From: Sulfitobacter aestuariivivens
GTDB taxonomy: Bacteria; Pseudomonadota; Alphaproteobacteria; Rhodobacterales; Rhodobacteraceae
Assembly: GCF_014763045.1 (NCBI RefSeq)
Contig: NZ_JACTAG010000002.1
Location: 62,001 to 126,000 of the forward strand
DNA length: 64,000 bases
Direction of reading: 5' to 3'
Shown here: positions 13,724-54,930 of the stretch, piece by piece
How positions within the stretch are numbered: position 1 is the stretch's first letter
Layout: the number at the start of each line of letters is the position of its first letter
Made by a program: the position numbers and the translations under genes
The notes under the pieces: model-generated
Seen by the model: the letters and a program-made list of their open reading frames with translations, nothing else
Told to the model about the DNA's origin: nothing
Database searches by the model: none

Positions 13724-13812
13724 AAGCCGTCAGGGCATATCCGGGGGAACCGCTGTCTTCTCGACTTGTCGACTTATTTTGAGCTAAATTTCCTTCAGGA
13801 GTGCTTAAGACG

Positions 13813-15675
13813 ATGAACCAAGGCCGCCAGGAACGTAGGCTGACGACAATACTTTCATTGGACGTCGTTGGGTATTCCCAACTGATGAGCAAGGACGAGA
13901 GCGGCACGGTGGCAACGCTCCAGCACTTGCGGCGATCTGAAATCAATCCCCGTGTCGACACGTATAATGGGCAGGTCATCAAACTTGTCGGCGACGGCAG
14001 CATCATCGAATTCAGCAGCGTGGTCGATGCCGTCAGCTTTGCAGTAGACGTGCAGCACGCCCTCGCAAGATCGCAATCCAAAAAGCCAGAACAGGACCGG
14101 GTCCTCTTTCGCATCGGCATCAATGTGGGCGACGTCATCGTCGATGACAAAGAGATATACGGCGATGGCGTGAACGTGGCTGCCCGGATCGAAGGTCTGG
14201 CAGACACCGGGGGGATATGCGTGTCTCAGACGGTCTATGATCATGTGAAAGACAAACTCGACCTGACCTTCCAGCCAATGGGCCCCCAGCAGCTGAAAAA
14301 CATCCCCGTTCCGGTGCGGGTTTATCGGATAGAGCTGGACAGCCGTTCCCGCCACCTGACTACATATCCGGCGGTGACAACTGCCGATCCTGCTGCTGAA
14401 CCGTCGAAGCCAAGGCGCTACAGCTGGGTGGCAGCAGCCCTGTTTGTAGTCTTGGCTCTCGCAGTCCTTGCATATGTGTTCCGGCCAGACGGCGCGTCCA
14501 GACCGGTGGTTGCCGTTCTGCCCTTCCATGACATCAGCCCACAAGACCAACGCGGTCTGCTGAGTGACCCGCTCAGCGATGGGATCCTCGCCTATATCGC
14601 CCGCTTTCCCGAACTGACGGTGATCGCCCGCGGCTCCAGCTTTCGATATCGCGACACGGACCGCGATCTGCGTGAAATCGGTGCGCAGCTTGACGCAGAC
14701 TATCTGCTCGAAGGCAGCCTGAATTTCGATGGGCAAAGGATCATCGTGAACGCCGCACTGGTCGATGTCAGCAAGAATACGCAAGTGTGGGCGGATCAGA
14801 TCACGGACGATATTGACGATCTGATGGTCTTGATCGCCGATATCGGTCAAAGGGTCGCCTACCAGGTAGAGGACTATCTTGGTCAGGTGCGCGTCGCGCA
14901 GCCAGGACCATTCAAGGCGGATGCGCTGCTGATGACCATGAAAGCACGACGCGCAACGATGCGCGGTCTGTCAAAAGAGAGCAACGACGCTGTCATTCAG
15001 ATGAACCGCGAAACAATAGAGCTATATCCCGACGAAGCCTGGGGCCACCTGGCGATGGCCTTTGCACTTCGCACCCAGGTCCGCTTTGGGTGGGCAGATG
15101 ATCCCGAAAAAACGCTTGCCCAGGCCGTCCGTCATGGAGAAACCGCCGTCAGGCTCGATCCGGGCAATTATTCGACCTACTTCGCGCTGGGCCGGGTGCG
15201 GTTGCAGCAGGGTGACCATCCCCGCGCAATCGAAGCCCTCGAAAGGGCCCTGTCGCTCAATCCGTCCACAGCCGATGCCCTGAATGCGCTCGCACAGGCG
15301 CATTTCTATCAGGGAAGAAACGAAAAGGCCCTCGAAATCCTCGCTGAATCGGCCCGTATCGACCCGCTGCCCTCATTTGTGCATTCGTGGATATTGGCGT
15401 GGGTGCTGTGGCAGGATGAGCAATGTGAAAAGGCCAGCGAAGCTTTCGGCAAGATCGCGTCACCGCCGCCTGCATCCCAGAAACTTGCCTCGGTGATCGA
15501 AACGTGCCTTGGCAATACAGAGGCAGCGCAGGCAGCTCTTTCTGCCTTTCTGGAGGCGACGCCGGACTGGACAATCGCAAAGGAAACCAAGCTGCAAGAA
15601 AACGTCTGGACCTATGAAACCGGTCGCGAACGCTGGATCGAAAATCTCGCTGAGGCCGGACTGCCAAGCGGCTGA
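13813..15675 (+). CDS. Class III adenylate/guanylate cyclase with TolB-like and TPR regions
   Basis: A 620-aa membrane-anchored signalling protein. The N-terminal cyclase domain (about 8-175) keeps the metal aspartates Asp17 (LSLDVVGYS) and Asp61 (KLVGDGS) and the Asn121/Arg125 pair (NVAAR), so catalysis is likely. One transmembrane helix lies at about 203-223. Residues 231-380 form a TolB/FlgO-like domain (PVVAVLPFHDISP, YLLEGSL), and the rest is TPR repeats (about 385-600) presumably outside the membrane. ATG 13813 was preferred over GTG 13801 because AGGAG lies 11 nt ahead of the ATG. The architecture is common in alphaproteobacteria. Whether it makes cAMP or cGMP is not shown. Confidence 0.88.
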   Translation: MNQGRQERRLTTILSLDVVGYSQLMSKDESGTVATLQHLRRSEINPRVDTYNGQVIKLVGDGSIIEFSSVVDAVSFAVDVQHALARSQSKKPEQDRVLFRIGINVGDVIVDDKEIYGDGVNVAARIEGLADTGGICVSQTVYDHVKDKLDLTFQPMGPQQLKNIPVPVRVYRIELDSRSRHLTTYPAVTTADPAAEPSKPRRYSWVAAALFVVLALAVLAYVFRPDGASRPVVAVLPFHDISPQDQRGLLSDPLSDGILAYIARFPELTVIARGSSFRYRDTDRDLREIGAQLDADYLLEGSLNFDGQRIIVNAALVDVSKNTQVWADQITDDIDDLMVLIADIGQRVAYQVEDYLGQVRVAQPGPFKADALLMTMKARRATMRGLSKESNDAVIQMNRETIELYPDEAWGHLAMAFALRTQVRFGWADDPEKTLAQAVRHGETAVRLDPGNYSTYFALGRVRLQQGDHPRAIEALERALSLNPSTADALNALAQAHFYQGRNEKALEILAESARIDPLPSFVHSWILAWVLWQDEQCEKASEAFGKIASPPPASQKLASVIETCLGNTEAAQAALSAFLEATPDWTIAKETKLQENVWTYETGRERWIENLAEAGLPSG

Positions 15676-48554: not shown

Positions 48555-50444
48555 ATGGGATATCACGAAACCTACGCATCCTGGCAAGACGATCCAGAGG
48601 GCTTTTGGCTCAAGGCAGCAGAGGCGATTGACTGGGATGTTGCTCCGACACAGGCGCTTTTCGATCGCGGCGACAACCTGTTTGAATGGTTCGCCGATGC
48701 CCGCGTGAACGGCTGCTACAATGCCGTCGACCGCCATGTGGAAAACGGACGTGGTGATCAGGTGGCGATTATCCACGACAGCCCCATCACCGACACCAAA
48801 ACCAAAATCACCTATGCCGAAATGCAGACCCGGGTTGCCGCCCTCGCCGGCGCAATGGCAGCCCAAGGGGTCACCAAGGGCGACCGCGTCATCATTTATA
48901 TGCCCATGGTGCCCGAAGCGCTGGATGCAATGCTTGCCTGCGCGCGCATCGGCGCGGTGCATTCCGTAGTTTTCGGCGGGTTTGCCGCCAACGAACTGGC
49001 CGTGCGCATTGATGACTGCACGCCCAAAGCCATACTCGCGGCGTCGTGCGGATTGGAACCGGGCCGCGTGGTCGCCTACAAACCACTGCTCGACGGAGCG
49101 ATTGAGATGGCATCGCACAAGCCCGACGTCTGCCTGATCCTGCAACGAGAACAGCAAACCTGCGATCTTGTCCCGGGGCGCGATCTTGACTGGCATGCGG
49201 CACAAGAAGGTGTCGCGCCTGCCGAATGTGTGCCGGTCGAAGGAAATCATCCTGCCTATATCCTATATACATCCGGCACGACGGGCGCGCCAAAGGGTGT
49301 CGTACGCCACACAGCCGGGCATCTCATCGCGCTGAACTGGACGATGAAGAACATCTATGACGTGAACCCCGGCGATGTCTTCTGGGCGGCATCGGACGTG
49401 GGCTGGGTCGTGGGGCACTCCTACATCTGTTACGGGCCGCTGATCCACGGCAACACCACTGTCGTGTTCGAAGGCAAACCCATCGGCACGCCGGATGCCG
49501 GTACCTTTTGGCGCATCATAGAAGAACACAACGTGCGCAGCTTTTTCACCGCACCGACAGCCATTCGCGCCGTAAAACGCGAAGATCCCAAGGGCGAATT
49601 TATCACGAAGTATGACCTTAGCGGACTACGCGCACTTTATCTGGCGGGCGAACGGGCCGACCCCGATACAATTCTCTGGGCGCAGGAAAAGCTGGGCAAG
49701 CCCGTCTATGATCACTGGTGGCAGACCGAAACTGGCTTTACGATTGCGGGCAACCCGGCGGGGCTCGAAGCGTTACCCGTCAAAATCGGATCGCCCACCG
49801 TGGCAATGCCCGGCTATGATGTGCAGATCCTGGATGAAGCTGGTCATCCCCAAAAGGCCGGGGAGTTGGGCGCCATCGCTATCAAGCTTCCCTTGCCCCC
49901 GGGCACGCTGCCGACACTCTGGAACGCCGAAGACCGCTACAAGAAAAGCTATCTCACCACGTTCCCCGGATACTATGAGACAGGTGATGCCGGCATGATG
50001 GACGATGACGGGTATCTCTACATCATGGCGCGCACCGATGACGTGATCAACGTTGCAGGCCACCGCTTGTCCACCGGTGCCATGGAGGAAGTGCTTGCAG
50101 GCCACCCGGACGTGGCAGAATGCGCGGTGGTCGGCGTCAGCGATGCACTCAAGGGCCAAATGCCGCTTGGCATGGTGTGCCTCTCCAAAGGCGTGAACCG
50201 CCCGCACGAGGAAATCGCGGCGGAATGCGCCAAACGGGTCCGCGACCAAATCGGACCCGTCGCCGCCTACAAGCAAACCTTGGTTGTAGATCGGTTGCCC
50301 AAGACACGCTCTGGCAAGATCTTGCGCGCCACCGTGGTCAAGATTGCCGAAAGCGCAGATTTCAAGCTGCCCGCCACCATCGACGACCCGGCCATCCTGG
50401 ATGAAATCAAGGCGGCCCTGCAAACCATTGGTTACGCCAAATGA
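48555..50444 (+). CDS. prpE: Propionyl-CoA synthetase
   Basis: A 629-aa acetyl/propionyl-CoA synthetase-type ANL ligase. The N-terminal ACS domain starts GYHETYASWQDDPEGFW, the P-loop is YTSGTTGAPKG (about 238-248), WWQTETGFTIAGNP is motif A5, and the catalytic lysine lies in KTRSGKIL near the end. Together with the PrpE-like length this indicates propionate as main substrate, with acetate possible. A GGGAGGAC site precedes ATG 48555. The stop overlaps the start of a cyclase-fusion gene by 4 nt. Propionate is a product of DMSP cleavage and odd-chain oxidation, consistent with the neighbourhood. Confidence 0.9.
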   Translation: MGYHETYASWQDDPEGFWLKAAEAIDWDVAPTQALFDRGDNLFEWFADARVNGCYNAVDRHVENGRGDQVAIIHDSPITDTKTKITYAEMQTRVAALAGAMAAQGVTKGDRVIIYMPMVPEALDAMLACARIGAVHSVVFGGFAANELAVRIDDCTPKAILAASCGLEPGRVVAYKPLLDGAIEMASHKPDVCLILQREQQTCDLVPGRDLDWHAAQEGVAPAECVPVEGNHPAYILYTSGTTGAPKGVVRHTAGHLIALNWTMKNIYDVNPGDVFWAASDVGWVVGHSYICYGPLIHGNTTVVFEGKPIGTPDAGTFWRIIEEHNVRSFFTAPTAIRAVKREDPKGEFITKYDLSGLRALYLAGERADPDTILWAQEKLGKPVYDHWWQTETGFTIAGNPAGLEALPVKIGSPTVAMPGYDVQILDEAGHPQKAGELGAIAIKLPLPPGTLPTLWNAEDRYKKSYLTTFPGYYETGDAGMMDDDGYLYIMARTDDVINVAGHRLSTGAMEEVLAGHPDVAECAVVGVSDALKGQMPLGMVCLSKGVNRPHEEIAAECAKRVRDQIGPVAAYKQTLVVDRLPKTRSGKILRATVVKIAESADFKLPATIDDPAILDEIKAALQTIGYAK

Positions 50445-51997
50445 CCCTACCGTTTGACGAACCACGTCTTCGCGCAGCCCTGCGCGCGGCGTGGTCCGCT
50501 CAGACAGCAAAGCAATGGACACCCGAGATGCCAGCAGCGGGTCAGTGTAATGTCACTGCGGTAGCTGTTCACGATCTCTATGGCGGCGATATCTGCATGA
50601 CGGCGCTGGAAACCTATGACGTGCCGCATTTCTATAACGTCTTTGACAGCCGGCGCGTCGATCTGACGGACAGCCAGTTCGACGCACCGATCGCATACGA
50701 TGACACGCCCACAACCCGGACGCATGCCATGAAATGGGTCACTGCGACCGAACTACAGACCCTCAAGGCAGCGCTCGAACTGCAACCGGGCGGCAGCCAA
50801 TTCCAGGCGATCACAGAAAAGCTGATCGACGGCGGACTCAAGGGAACAGAATTGGATTCCCTGCTTGAGTCCTTCTGTGCAGAGCTTGTGGCGGCAGACG
50901 TCCCCATCAGCCGTGCGCATATCACGATGCGCACATTACACCCCGAGTTCGGCAGCGTCGCGTTTCGCTGGCAAGCTGAGACAGGCAAGCACAGTCAGCG
51001 ATTTGAGCGCACGAGTGAAAGCCCCGAAGAGTGGCTCCGCAGCCCCCTTTATCATCTGGCGACCAGCGATGTGTCAGAGATCCGACAGCGCCTGACGGCC
51101 AATGAACCGACGTGGGATTTTCCCATTTTCGACGACCTGCGGGCTGAAGGGCGCACCGACTATGTCGCATTCAAGCGATTCTTTCTCGATATGTCCAACA
51201 GCGACCGAAGAGAAGAAGACCTTCAGAGCGCCGAAGGCATGTTGCTGTCGTGCTCCTCAGACCATCCCACGGGCTTTTCGGAGGCACATCTGGAAACCCT
51301 GCGAGCGCTTCTTCCGCCGCTCGGCCTTGCGCTCAAATCCGGCTCAAACCGCCAGATGGCAGAGGACATCACGGCGATCTATCTGGGCTCTGACGCAGGT
51401 AAGCGCGTCCTGTCCGGTGATATCACCCGTGGCTCGTCGCGCACGATCTCGGCCGTCATACTTGATTTCGACCTGCGTGGGTTCACCCATCTTTCAGAAA
51501 CCCATCCGGGCACCGTTATCATCGAAATGCTCAACGCCTACTTTGGCGAGGCTGTCGAGATTGTTGAGCAGCACGGCGGTGAGGTTCTGAAATTCATGGG
51601 CGATGGGATGCTGGCAATTTTCGACATTGAAAAGGTGCCAAATGCGCGCAACGCAGCCTTGTCCGCAGCCATCGCGATGCGCGATGAGCTTGAAGTCTTC
51701 AACATCGCGCGCAGCAACGCTGATCTGCCTGTGACGGGTTTCACCCTCGCATTGAATGCAGGCGACGTTCTTTATGGCAACATCGGGGGGCGGGCACGGC
51801 TCGACTTTACGGTAATCGGTCCTGCGGTGAACACGACGGCGCGCATTCTGGGGATGTGCGATCCGCTTGGTCAGCAGATTCTTGTTTCATCCAATGTTGC
51901 CGCCCCTTTGCGTGAAACCCGAAAGGAACTTGTATCAGTAGGTCAGTACCGGATGCGGGGTGTGGCCGACCGGCACGAACTGTTCACCGTCGACTGA
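50441..51997 (+). CDS. YunG-like domain fused to class III adenylate/guanylate cyclase
   Basis: A 518-aa protein with two unrelated parts. Residues 1-113 match the small stand-alone YunG family: AAWSAQTAKQWTP, PAAGQCNVTAVAVHDLYGGDI with Cys36, HFYN with His63, VDLTDSQF with Asp74, then a family-like ending IAYDDTPTTRTHAM. The Cys-His-Asp order recalls papain-like folds. Residues about 120-325 are the sensory region seen in many alphaproteobacterial soluble cyclases, and about 335-518 the catalytic domain with metal Asp344 (DLRGFTHLSE) and Asp388 (KFMGDGML) and VNTTARI. No membrane helix. No plausible internal start separates the two, so this is a true fusion. Its ATG overlaps the prpE stop. 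Confidence 0.82.
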   Translation: MTLPFDEPRLRAALRAAWSAQTAKQWTPEMPAAGQCNVTAVAVHDLYGGDICMTALETYDVPHFYNVFDSRRVDLTDSQFDAPIAYDDTPTTRTHAMKWVTATELQTLKAALELQPGGSQFQAITEKLIDGGLKGTELDSLLESFCAELVAADVPISRAHITMRTLHPEFGSVAFRWQAETGKHSQRFERTSESPEEWLRSPLYHLATSDVSEIRQRLTANEPTWDFPIFDDLRAEGRTDYVAFKRFFLDMSNSDRREEDLQSAEGMLLSCSSDHPTGFSEAHLETLRALLPPLGLALKSGSNRQMAEDITAIYLGSDAGKRVLSGDITRGSSRTISAVILDFDLRGFTHLSETHPGTVIIEMLNAYFGEAVEIVEQHGGEVLKFMGDGMLAIFDIEKVPNARNAALSAAIAMRDELEVFNIARSNADLPVTGFTLALNAGDVLYGNIGGRARLDFTVIGPAVNTTARILGMCDPLGQQILVSSNVAAPLRETRKELVSVGQYRMRGVADRHELFTVD

Positions 51998-52048: not shown

Positions 52049-52246
52049 TTAGTGCTTGGCGACAAATTCGTCGATCTGACGCTCAGCTTCAGATTTCGCA
52101 AGGCCGTAACGCTCTTGGATCTTGCCAACCAGCTTGTCGCGGTTGCCTTCGGCCTGATCGACTTCGTCGTCGGTCAGATCGCCCCAATGCGCTTTGATGT
52201 CGCCTTTGAACTGCTTCCAGTTACCTTCGATTGTGTCCCAATTCAT
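52049..52246 (-). CDS. CsbD-family stress protein
   Basis: A 65-aa hydrophilic protein with the full CsbD pattern (MNWDTIEGNWKQFKGDIK, WGDLTDDEVDQAEGNRDKL, GLAKSEAERQIDEF). The family is induced by general stress in many bacteria and lacks a known biochemical role. A GAAAGGA site precedes ATG 52246. It is a single gene ending at the shared terminator at 52003-52030. The 188-bp upstream spacer is AT-richer but no specific sigma-factor motif was assigned. Confidence 0.93.
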   Translation of the reverse strand: MNWDTIEGNWKQFKGDIKAHWGDLTDDEVDQAEGNRDKLVGKIQERYGLAKSEAERQIDEFVAKH

Positions 52247-52434: not shown

Positions 52435-52881
52435 ATGCACAGACTTCTTGCCGCCGTTCTGGCGATACTTCCCATAAGCGGATGGGCCGCCGAAGGCGAA
52501 CGGATCACCGTCACAGGTGAAATCATCGACACGTGGTGCTATTATTCAGGCGTCATGGGCGGGCCGGATGCGGTTGTCGGTTCTGCACATCACACCTGCG
52601 CTTTGTGGTGTTCCGCCTCTGGTATCCCCATTGGGCTGCTGACCGAGGACGGAACGGTCTATACGATCCTCAAACTGGGCGCGCAGGATAATGCGACCGG
52701 CGGCGATACCGCTCTGAGGCTCGCGTCCCATACGGTGACGGCAGATGGCATGCACTATGCACGCGATGGCATCAATTACATTGTGGTCGAAGAGGTGGTC
52801 GAAGATCTCGGAATCGTAAACCTCACCCACGAAGACTACGACGTCGTCCCCTCCTTCGCCATTCCGGAGCCGAAAGAATGA
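52435..52881 (+). CDS. Cys/His-rich periplasmic protein, SCO-operon member 1
   Basis: A 148-aa exported protein. Signal peptide 1-19 (ending GWAAE). The mature N-terminus reads VTGEIIDTWCYYSG with Cys35, then GSAHHTCALWCSASGIP with His52, His53, Cys55 and Cys59, a compact potential metal or heme site, followed by LLTEDGTVYTILK. No named family was recognised. The first half of the next protein follows the same plan, so the two are diverged tandem paralogues. The stop overlaps the next start (ATGA). Operon with a SCO copper chaperone suggests a copper-related job; this is inference. Confidence 0.8.
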   Translation: MHRLLAAVLAILPISGWAAEGERITVTGEIIDTWCYYSGVMGGPDAVVGSAHHTCALWCSASGIPIGLLTEDGTVYTILKLGAQDNATGGDTALRLASHTVTADGMHYARDGINYIVVEEVVEDLGIVNLTHEDYDVVPSFAIPEPKE

Positions 52882-53447
52882 TCCGCGCATTTCTTTTCCC
52901 CGCTCTCGCCCTGCTTGCTGCGCCGCTCGCGGCACAGGATTTCTCAGAAAATTCCGAAGCCCGCAGTTGGAACCTCTATGCCGAAGAACCGGCGCTCTTT
53001 GAGGCTAAGGTCGTTGACGCCATGTGCGAACTCACGGGTGACTGCCCGTCAAACTGCGGCGATGGCGACCGCCAGCTGGCGCTTTTGCGTGCGGCCGACG
53101 GGGTCTTGGTGATGGCGCTGAAGAACAATCAGCCCGCTTTCACAGGTGCCGTCGTCGATTTGCTCCCCTATTGCGGGCAAGATATCACCGTTGATGGACT
53201 CATGATCAACGATGAAGATTTCCCGATCAACAACGTTTATCTGGTGCAACGCATCAAGGCTGGGAGCGCGGACTGGACCAAGGCAAGCCAGTGGACGAAG
53301 GTCTGGGCAGCCAATAACCCCGATGCCAAAGGCAAAGGCCAATGGTTCCGGCGCGATCCCCGCATTCAGGCACTGATCGCCAAAGAGGGATATCTTGGGC
53401 TGGGGCTCGAGATCGACAAGGCGTTCAAGGAATACCTTTTCGAATGA
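52878..53447 (+). CDS. Cys-rich periplasmic protein, SCO-operon member 2
   Basis: A 189-aa exported protein. Signal peptide 1-19 (ending PLAAQ). EAKVVDAMCELTGDCPSNCGDGD contains Cys50, Cys56 and Cys60; a fourth, Cys99, is in LLPYCGQDI. The pattern VVD-x-x-C, later CxxxC, then a hydrophobic LALLRAADGVLVMALK parallels the first protein (IIDTWC, CALWC, IGLLTEDGTVYTILK). It overlaps both neighbours by 4 nt. The C-terminal half is unique and hydrophilic. Candidate role: periplasmic metal binding or redox partner for the SCO protein. Confidence 0.8.
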   Translation: MIRAFLFPALALLAAPLAAQDFSENSEARSWNLYAEEPALFEAKVVDAMCELTGDCPSNCGDGDRQLALLRAADGVLVMALKNNQPAFTGAVVDLLPYCGQDITVDGLMINDEDFPINNVYLVQRIKAGSADWTKASQWTKVWAANNPDAKGKGQWFRRDPRIQALIAKEGYLGLGLEIDKAFKEYLFE

Positions 53448-53998
53448 AGGCGCTGATCACGGCCTTGATGGTGTTGGCAACACCGGTCTGGGCGCAGACT
53501 GCGCTGCCTTTCGATGTGGGTGGACCTTTTGCGCTGACAGATCACACCGGGGCACCGCGCACACAGCAAGACCCTGAAGGGCAGCCACAGTTGCTGTTCT
53601 TTGGCTATGCGAATTGCCCCGGCATCTGCACTGCCGCGCTGCCGCTGATGGTGGGGATTGTCGAACAACTGGCAAAAAAGGGCGTGACCGCCACCCCGGT
53701 CATGATCACCGTCGATCCGGCGCGGGATCAAGTGGGCAACATGGAAGCCCTTTTGAAATACCATCCGGACTTCATCGGTCTGACGGGCGATCCTTCCGCA
53801 TTGCAAGCCGCCTATGAGGCGTTCTCAATCGATCATGAACTTGCCTATGAGGACCCCGAATACGGTCCGGTCTATAGCCACGGCTCTATGGTCTACCTGC
53901 TTGACGGCCAGGGTGAGGTGCTGACCCTGATCCCGCCTGTGGTGGACGAATGGACTGCTGCCGAAATCGCTTTGAAATATGTCTCAGGGCCGGGGTAG
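53444..53998 (+). CDS. SCO1/SenC/PrrC family copper chaperone
   Basis: A 184-aa thioredoxin-fold protein exported by an N-terminal signal (1-17, ending PVWA). The copper-binding CxxxC is Cys58/Cys62 in NCPGICTAALP and the third ligand is His146 in YSHGSMVYLLD, so all ligands are kept. SCO proteins deliver copper to the CuA site of cytochrome oxidase or act as thiol reductases. There are no oxidase genes next to it; its partners here are two cysteine-rich periplasmic proteins coupled by ATGA overlaps. ATG 53444 was chosen for this overlap and signal peptide. Confidence 0.9.
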   Translation: MKALITALMVLATPVWAQTALPFDVGGPFALTDHTGAPRTQQDPEGQPQLLFFGYANCPGICTAALPLMVGIVEQLAKKGVTATPVMITVDPARDQVGNMEALLKYHPDFIGLTGDPSALQAAYEAFSIDHELAYEDPEYGPVYSHGSMVYLLDGQGEVLTLIPPVVDEWTAAEIALKYVSGPG

Positions 53999-54174: not shown

Positions 54175-54930
54175 TCAGGTAAACTGTTCTGATATCAGTC
54201 GTTCTTCCAATCCGTGACCAGGATCAAAAAGAATGGCGTGTGACACACTCGGCTCTGACCGAATCTCGACCCGCGTCACATCGCGATGGGATTTGCCGTC
54301 AGCATCGGCCATTACGGGCCGTTTTTCGGGCTCAAGCACATCAAATTGCACCCGCGCGGATGAGGGCAAGAGCGCCCCGCGCCAGCGCCTGGGCCGAAAG
54401 GCGGACATGGCCGTCAAGGCCAACACATCCGCGCCGATCGGCAGGATAGGACCGTGCGCTGAATAATTGTAGGCGGTCGATCCGGCGGGTGTCGCCACCA
54501 GCGCCCCGTCACATACAAGTTCCTGCATCCGCAGCCGCCCGTCGACGGTGATCTGCAACTTGGCAGCTTGTGGACCTGCCCGCAGGAGGGAAACCTCATT
54601 GATCGCCAGCGCCGTTGAAACCGATCCGTCCGAATGGGTTGCGCGCATCTCAAGAGGGTTGATCTCTGCCCGCTCGGCAGCGCTCAGCCGCTCCACCAGA
54701 TCGCCTTCGCCGTATGCATTCATCAAAAAACCGATTGTGCCACGATTCATCCCGTAAACGGCCGCGTCCAGTTCTTGGGTTTCATGCAGCGTATGCAACA
54801 TGAAGCCGTCACCGCCCAGCGCCACGATGACCTCGGCCTCTTGCACAGGCACATCGCCATAGCGCCCGATCAGGGCGGCCCGCGCGGTCTGTGCCACGGC
54901 GGCGGCACTGGCGGTGAATGCGATTTTCAT
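54175..54930 (-). CDS. nadK: NAD kinase
   Basis: A 251-aa enzyme phosphorylating NAD to NADP. The GGDG motif at 39-42 ([13 protein letters not shown]) and the later [16 protein letters not shown] (the second conserved NAD-kinase motif) are both present. ATG 54930 ([14 protein letters not shown]) fits the family; a longer in-frame reading is unlikely. It is divergent from glyA at 55103. The alphaproteobacterial form is short compared with E. coli (292 aa), and this length is normal for the clade. Confidence 0.94.

Follow-up and report, generated by a model that had tools for sequence, protein, structure and literature searches.

Class III cyclases take many different input domains. The gene described here, located in a 64,000-nt stretch of the Sulfitobacter aestuariivivens genome that is referred to below as the window (contig NZ_JACTAG010000002.1, positions 62,001 to 126,000 of the forward strand), encodes a soluble cyclase of this class fused at its N-terminus to a domain of the YunG family. 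Among the described systems, the YHS-domain adenylate cyclase of Mycobacterium phlei also combines a class III cyclase with a small extra domain and is reported to be a probable copper sensor; it differs from the present protein in that the domain is another one, is C-terminal, and was tested experimentally (PMC4626032). A long helix between an N-terminal sensor and the cyclase is found in the sensor-signalling helix-cyclase proteins and is also predicted in the fusion protein, the two being likened by the position of the helix and not by the S-helix motif; the abstract describing these proteins contains no mention of YunG (PMC1592074).

The YunG family (PF24585) comprises stand-alone proteins of Bacillus and of scattered Pseudomonadota, to which the N-terminal part of the fusion protein is linked by a profile score far over the cut-off and by ten invariant residues. 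The members read are separate proteins of ~100-135 residues, whereas here YunG is fused to a cyclase. The remainder of the protein resembles the roseobacter cyclases encoded beside a PrpE-type ligase (Sulfitobacter loci L001, L003, L007, and others), which have the same place, sensor, cyclase domain, and catalytic residues but, unlike the fusion, begin at an ATG or TTG of their own and lack YunG. The initial annotation of the window described YunG as having no known function and its union with a cyclase as undescribed. The literature search agrees with both points, as it returned no account of YunG function or of a YunG-cyclase fusion, with the proviso that the name is a common surname and a buried mention is possible; nor was a second fused gene present in the genomes examined. 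Both domains are known, and their combination, seen in one genome, appears new. As class III cyclases accept many inputs, what is new in the fusion is the pairing of domains, not the type of system.

The fusion gene is a single uninterrupted frame that encodes both YunG and the cyclase, and in this it differs from its relatives. The features of the locus are the following:

48555-50444 (+), AMP-forming acyl-CoA ligase of the PrpE/AcsA type, scoring highest, though under the equivalog cut-off, against propionate-CoA ligase
50441-51997 (+), fusion gene of 518 codons: YunG, GAF-like region, helix, class III cyclase
50441-50444 (+), ATGA, in which the stop of the ligase overlaps the start of the fusion gene
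50465-50776 (+), YunG domain, residues 9-112 (PF24585 profile)
50546-50548 (+), Cys36 of YunG
50627-50629 (+), His63 of YunG
50660-50662 (+), Asp74 of YunG
50729-50731 (+), in-frame ATG at codon 97, inside the YunG part, from which a shorter cyclase might be translated
50777-50809 (+), junction, residues 113-123, the site of the own start and first ~15 residues in the orthologues
50792-51280 (+), sensor region, residues 118-280, predicted to be GAF-like, conserved in the orthologues
51281-51385 (+), long helix (predicted), residues 281-315, linking the sensor to the cyclase
51458-51973 (+), class III cyclase domain, residues 340-511, in which the catalytic residues are conserved

Two Pfam families exceed their cut-offs in the protein, YunG at residues 9-112 and Guanylate_cyc (PF00211) at residues 340-511, and the residues between them have no Pfam match. 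The YunG score is 105.5 bits for residues 1-120 and 101.5 bits for the whole protein against a cut-off of 27 (E 2.4e-30 for the isolated N-terminal part), and that of Guanylate_cyc is 50.5 bits against a cut-off of 21.9 (E 2.5e-13). The fusion of a YunG-type domain to a soluble class III cyclase, as initially annotated, is thereby borne out by two domains over their cut-offs in one open frame. The further statement that the frame has neither a break nor a plausible internal start holds in its first half, the frame being open throughout, and is not quite exact in its second, given the in-frame ATG at codon 97. This codon is the sole ATG, GTG, or TTG of the frame across codons 85-137; between it and the TTG at codon 138 only CTG is found, at codons 114 and 128. 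With 14 genes of the window as the training set, codon usage prefers one frame across YunG, junction, sensor, and cyclase.

The fusion retains all ten of the columns in which 16 other YunG proteins show no variation. Cys36, His63, and Asp74, which the initial annotation singled out, occupy columns invariant in all 16, and it is plausible that these Cys, His, and Asp residues make up a putative active or binding site. In a tree of 17 YunG proteins the fusion YunG clusters with five roseobacter ones (support 88/94, under the mark for strong support). The suggestion that the domain has a papain-like fold found no backing: the comparisons described here were no better than chance or controls, and the model of the isolated domain is of low confidence. 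As a single sequence YunG has no match in the PDB up to E 1, and a 12-row YunG profile gave two chance-level matches there (E 0.86 and 1.5), neither of them a papain-like or transglutaminase-like enzyme. In hhalign comparisons, the transglutaminase core (21 rows) reached a probability of 0.1% and C39 (17 rows) 0.6%, against 0.1-4.3% for three unrelated controls, which is weak evidence of absence; these sets were drawn from 23 of 25 transglutaminase loci and 18 of 25 C39 loci, three having been dropped as incomplete (L195, L209, and L234).

In the cyclase domain, D344, D388, K384, D455, N464, and R468 are invariant across 43 rows including the fusion. We take D344 and D388 to be the two metal aspartates, which are thus intact as initially annotated, the Lys and the other Asp to be the base-choosing pair, and the Asn and Arg to be the transition-state residues. 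A Lys-Asp pair in class III cyclases points to ATP as the substrate, and its conservation suggests the same for the fusion cyclase; an adenylate cyclase acting as a dimer is the probable product, given the class of the enzyme and the residues that it conserves. The full-length model, built on an alignment of 43 rows that contains no YunG relatives, has a mean predicted local distance difference test (pLDDT) score of 80, with residues 118-518 mostly at >80 and residues 21-99 of YunG at <50. Residues 118-280 of the model have a GAF-like order of helices and strands (by eye), followed by a 35-residue helix at 281-315 and the cyclase; the last predicted YunG helix (102-113) lies four residues from the first sensor helix (118-134). 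The top Foldseek match is the phytochrome-adenylate cyclase 6fht (E 2e-18), a loose superposition with a template modelling (TM) score of 0.41 by query and a root mean square deviation of 13.8; the cyclase part matches CyaB (3r5g_B, TM 0.82) and CyaC (1wc1_B, TM 0.83), both by target length. Models of PycC of the Pycsar system also match the cyclase part (best E 6e-21), as expected of any class III cyclase; the ligase, CsbD-like, and SCO1 genes are the neighbours that were examined in this context, with no dedicated defence-system scan of them. The phage family phrog_34154 matches residues 134-515 of the fusion (E 2.9e-56), so the sensor-plus-cyclase type is also present in phage or prophage records.

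The same ligase-cyclase pair exists without YunG in the relatives of the fusion gene. A pattern-seeded scan with the whole fusion protein, covering one genome per species in 84,980 species, returned 164 relatives; in all of the best 80, which were used further, the best segment starts at residue 89 or beyond. Queries with 17 YunG proteins found no YunG in these 80 loci (L001-L080), in L082-L095 (14), or in L121-L177 (57). The fusion protein is matched by 459 plasmid records, and among the 15 matches listed the start lies at residue 82 or beyond. Within the genus the sensor part is matched in 22 of 62 genomes, the fusion-bearing one included. Fourteen of the 21 others carry a clear orthologue (54-59% identity in the cyclase part); the matches in the remaining seven are weaker, and four of these (G016, G021, G035, and G084) have no ligase match in the DNA examined. 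The distance from the end of the ligase match to the start of the cyclase match (codon 124; 128 in two) is 78-94 nt in 12 of the 14 genomes and 479 nt in G082; G031 has no ligase within its 1.5-kb flank, and in the Sulfitobacter record L022, whose match values equal those of G031, the ligase is 1.4 kb away. At the fusion locus, 369 nt separate the ligase end from codon 124. A start codon is present at the equivalent of codon 107 in each of the 13 orthologue loci read, nine of which begin with MAAP; several of these loci are the same genomes sampled through two collections. The longer distance and the orthologue starts together indicate that ~280 additional nt with YunG replace a short leader and that the first ~15 residues of the cyclase were replaced as well.

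Two cases among these relatives deserve a separate mention. In L140 and L147, both from G013 of the same genus, the sensor part of a related cyclase is split into two short frames, one with an internal TAA, and the gene is probably broken. L048 (JAHVJD010000009.1), titled Nocardioides marinus, carries a Leisingera-type cyclase and is probably mislabelled.

YunG itself is rare, being found in 14 other genomes. It is present in 2 of 62 genomes of the genus, 6 of 394 of the family (393 genera), 7 of 385 of the class, and 4 of 180 of the order; the four sets overlap, and each count includes the fusion-bearing genome. The Bacillus subtilis control genome also carries it, as do 12 of 72,556 plasmid records, in which it is annotated as a hypothetical protein or not at all; no relative was found in scans of viral contigs. 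The 12 YunG loci read encode separate proteins of the size given above, as measured from the nearest start (L108 is truncated), with long open frames upstream of YunG in L099 and L104; in L244 YunG ends 119 residues past the start of the match, and in L243 (G1103) a stop early in the match makes the gene appear broken. A match with an internal stop in L245 (G1116) is probably a broken copy. The plasmids L180 (CP031730.1, labelled Stenotrophomonas) and L181 (NZ_CP130332.1, labelled Lysinibacillus) have a near-identical gene order and YunG protein, and one of the two records may be mislabelled or contaminated.

The genomic setting of YunG varies among the other genomes, with no constant partner seen (mostly by eye). 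Neither the sensor nor the cyclase part is matched in any of the 30 YunG-bearing stretches, which comprise 15 from the genome searches, five from plasmids, and ten longer stretches of the same genomes. The view that YunG normally stands alone is therefore true of the genomes examined, with no cyclase nearby in these loci. Among 299 genomes of the phylum queried with residues 1-163, no other has both parts; in G082, of the same genus, YunG and the cyclase are located on separate contigs, which means that both parts exist apart. Since the ligase-cyclase pair occurs without YunG in Sulfitobacter, and YunG is rare and has no cyclase near it in the other loci examined, YunG appears to have been added to an existing pair.

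We favour, with modest confidence, a genuine fusion, that is, a soluble adenylate cyclase with an extra N-terminal YunG input domain that would be likely to shift its activity. A YunG segment of the roseobacter type occupies the short gap between the CoA-ligase and class III cyclase genes and has taken over the cyclase start, the fusion now beginning by a stop-start overlap with the ligase, to which it would be translationally coupled. The ancestral input would be the GAF-like region, relayed through the predicted long helix, by which it probably controls the cyclase as in other sensor-helix-cyclase proteins. YunG would form a further N-terminal input domain ahead of this sensor, most likely binding or acting on a small ligand through the Cys-His-Asp site and so shifting cyclase activity; by the precedent of the YHS-domain cyclase, it may make the enzyme answer a new signal. 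More tentatively, YunG may bind a ligand or carry out thiol chemistry, with cyclic AMP (cAMP) as the readout of its occupancy or catalytic state, the fusion then being the first natural reporter of the signal or substrate of YunG proteins. The fusion is a rare handle on the function of YunG, and its union with an enzyme that has an easy cAMP assay turns the question of what YunG responds to into a simple screen.

Several observations weigh against a genuine fusion with an added input. It is known from one genome and one assembly. Two of the eight columns identical in 15 of the 16 other YunG proteins differ here (Asn30 to Met and Gly70 to Ser), and with these near-invariant positions changed YunG may be in decay. 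The AlphaFold single-sequence model of the isolated domain has a pLDDT of 36, too low to use. The GAF assignment is model-based: the family search gave one weak GAF match in 25 members (E 0.063) and none in the fusion itself, and a sensor profile gave only chance-level matches against the PDB (best E 0.11). The in-frame ATG at codon 97 could yield a cyclase free of YunG. The single genome and the two altered positions, together with the varied places of YunG elsewhere and the complete ancestral sensor region kept by the cyclase, would fit a neutral fusion, in which YunG came into frame ahead of the cyclase and is carried along, with a job of its own or in decay, and does not regulate the cyclase. 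We regard this as rather unlikely, as all ten invariant YunG residues and the six catalytic cyclase residues are retained and a useless extension of 110 residues on a regulated enzyme would probably be lost. Improbable, too, is the production of two proteins, one of ~57 kDa that begins at the ATGA and is the complete fusion, the other a short cyclase of ~46 kDa that begins at codon 97; that ATG lies 10 codons ahead of the orthologue start position, but no clear ribosome-binding site precedes it (by eye).

The history of the cyclase part leaves room for a different origin. The fusion cyclase is 52-57% identical to its Sulfitobacter, Ruegeria, and Roseovarius orthologues, which are mostly 66-77% identical to one another (92% in one pair); one of them, L030, is likewise 52-55% identical to the fusion and to the other Sulfitobacter-type rows. 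In a 75-row cyclase tree, from which 36 of the 111 distinct segments were omitted by hand as near copies or distant rows, the fusion lies just outside the Sulfitobacter/Ruegeria/Roseovarius clade, with Shimodaira-Hasegawa-like approximate likelihood ratio test (SH-aLRT) values of 98 for the clade and 85 for its union with the fusion. The ligase tree, in contrast, groups the ligase of the window with L022 of Sulfitobacter (FastTree with midpoint root, branch support not considered). The cyclase may have diverged rapidly once fused, or the resident gene may have been replaced by a foreign or older fused one. Displacement of the resident cyclase by a complete YunG-cyclase gene, either an older one or one acquired from a roseobacter outside the sample, is possible if somewhat doubtful: the end branch of the fusion is long (0.61), its placement in the Sulfitobacter group (13 rows held together) is not rejected by the approximately unbiased (AU) test (p-AU 0.099), its position beside the ligase is that of the relatives, and no other fused gene occurs among the genomes searched. 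An assembly or sequencing fault that joined two adjacent genes is very improbable, even with a single assembly at hand. Because ATG, GTG, and TTG are absent between codons 97 and 138, a two-gene reading requires a start inside YunG; codon usage is that of one frame, synteny continues without a break on either flank, and the extra DNA is a segment of ~280 nt and not one base. On its contig, which extends to position 1552947 or beyond, the gene begins at position 112441.

The ligase encoded upstream had been named a propionyl-CoA synthetase. The ATGA overlap with it is present, but propionate-CoA ligase is only its best match: it scores 711.7 (cut-off 955) and 680.3 (cut-off 827.4) with the propionate-CoA ligase models and is also under the cut-offs of the acetate-CoA ligase models. 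The overlap had also been taken as a clue to YunG; as the ligase-cyclase pair occurs in relatives without YunG, the link to the ligase is no evidence on YunG. In Sulfitobacter the cyclase and a short-chain acyl-CoA ligase may be co-produced. The Ruegeria and Roseovarius loci have the cyclase, and the ligase is unmatched in the flanking DNA examined.

The ligase is ~79-87% identical to its counterparts in syntenic Sulfitobacter loci, and the downstream frames at 54175 and 55103 are ~80-93% identical, in comparison with only 54-61% for the frame at 53342. A 65-residue frame at 52049-52246 (-), convergent with the fusion gene, has the look of a CsbD-type stress protein (by eye). It is followed at 52435-53998 (+) by two proteins that match no Pfam or NCBIfam family at E 0.001 and have secretion-like N-termini (by eye), and then by a SCO1/SenC protein. 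The frames at 52435 and 53342 are also found near the cyclase in six loci (L001, L007, L022, L024, L025, and L030).

The class III cyclase family is matched at 31 places in the genome, many for its 4.2 Mb. Another class III cyclase is encoded within the window at 13801-15675 (+); its cyclase domain is N-terminal and is followed by tetratricopeptide repeats at the C-terminus.

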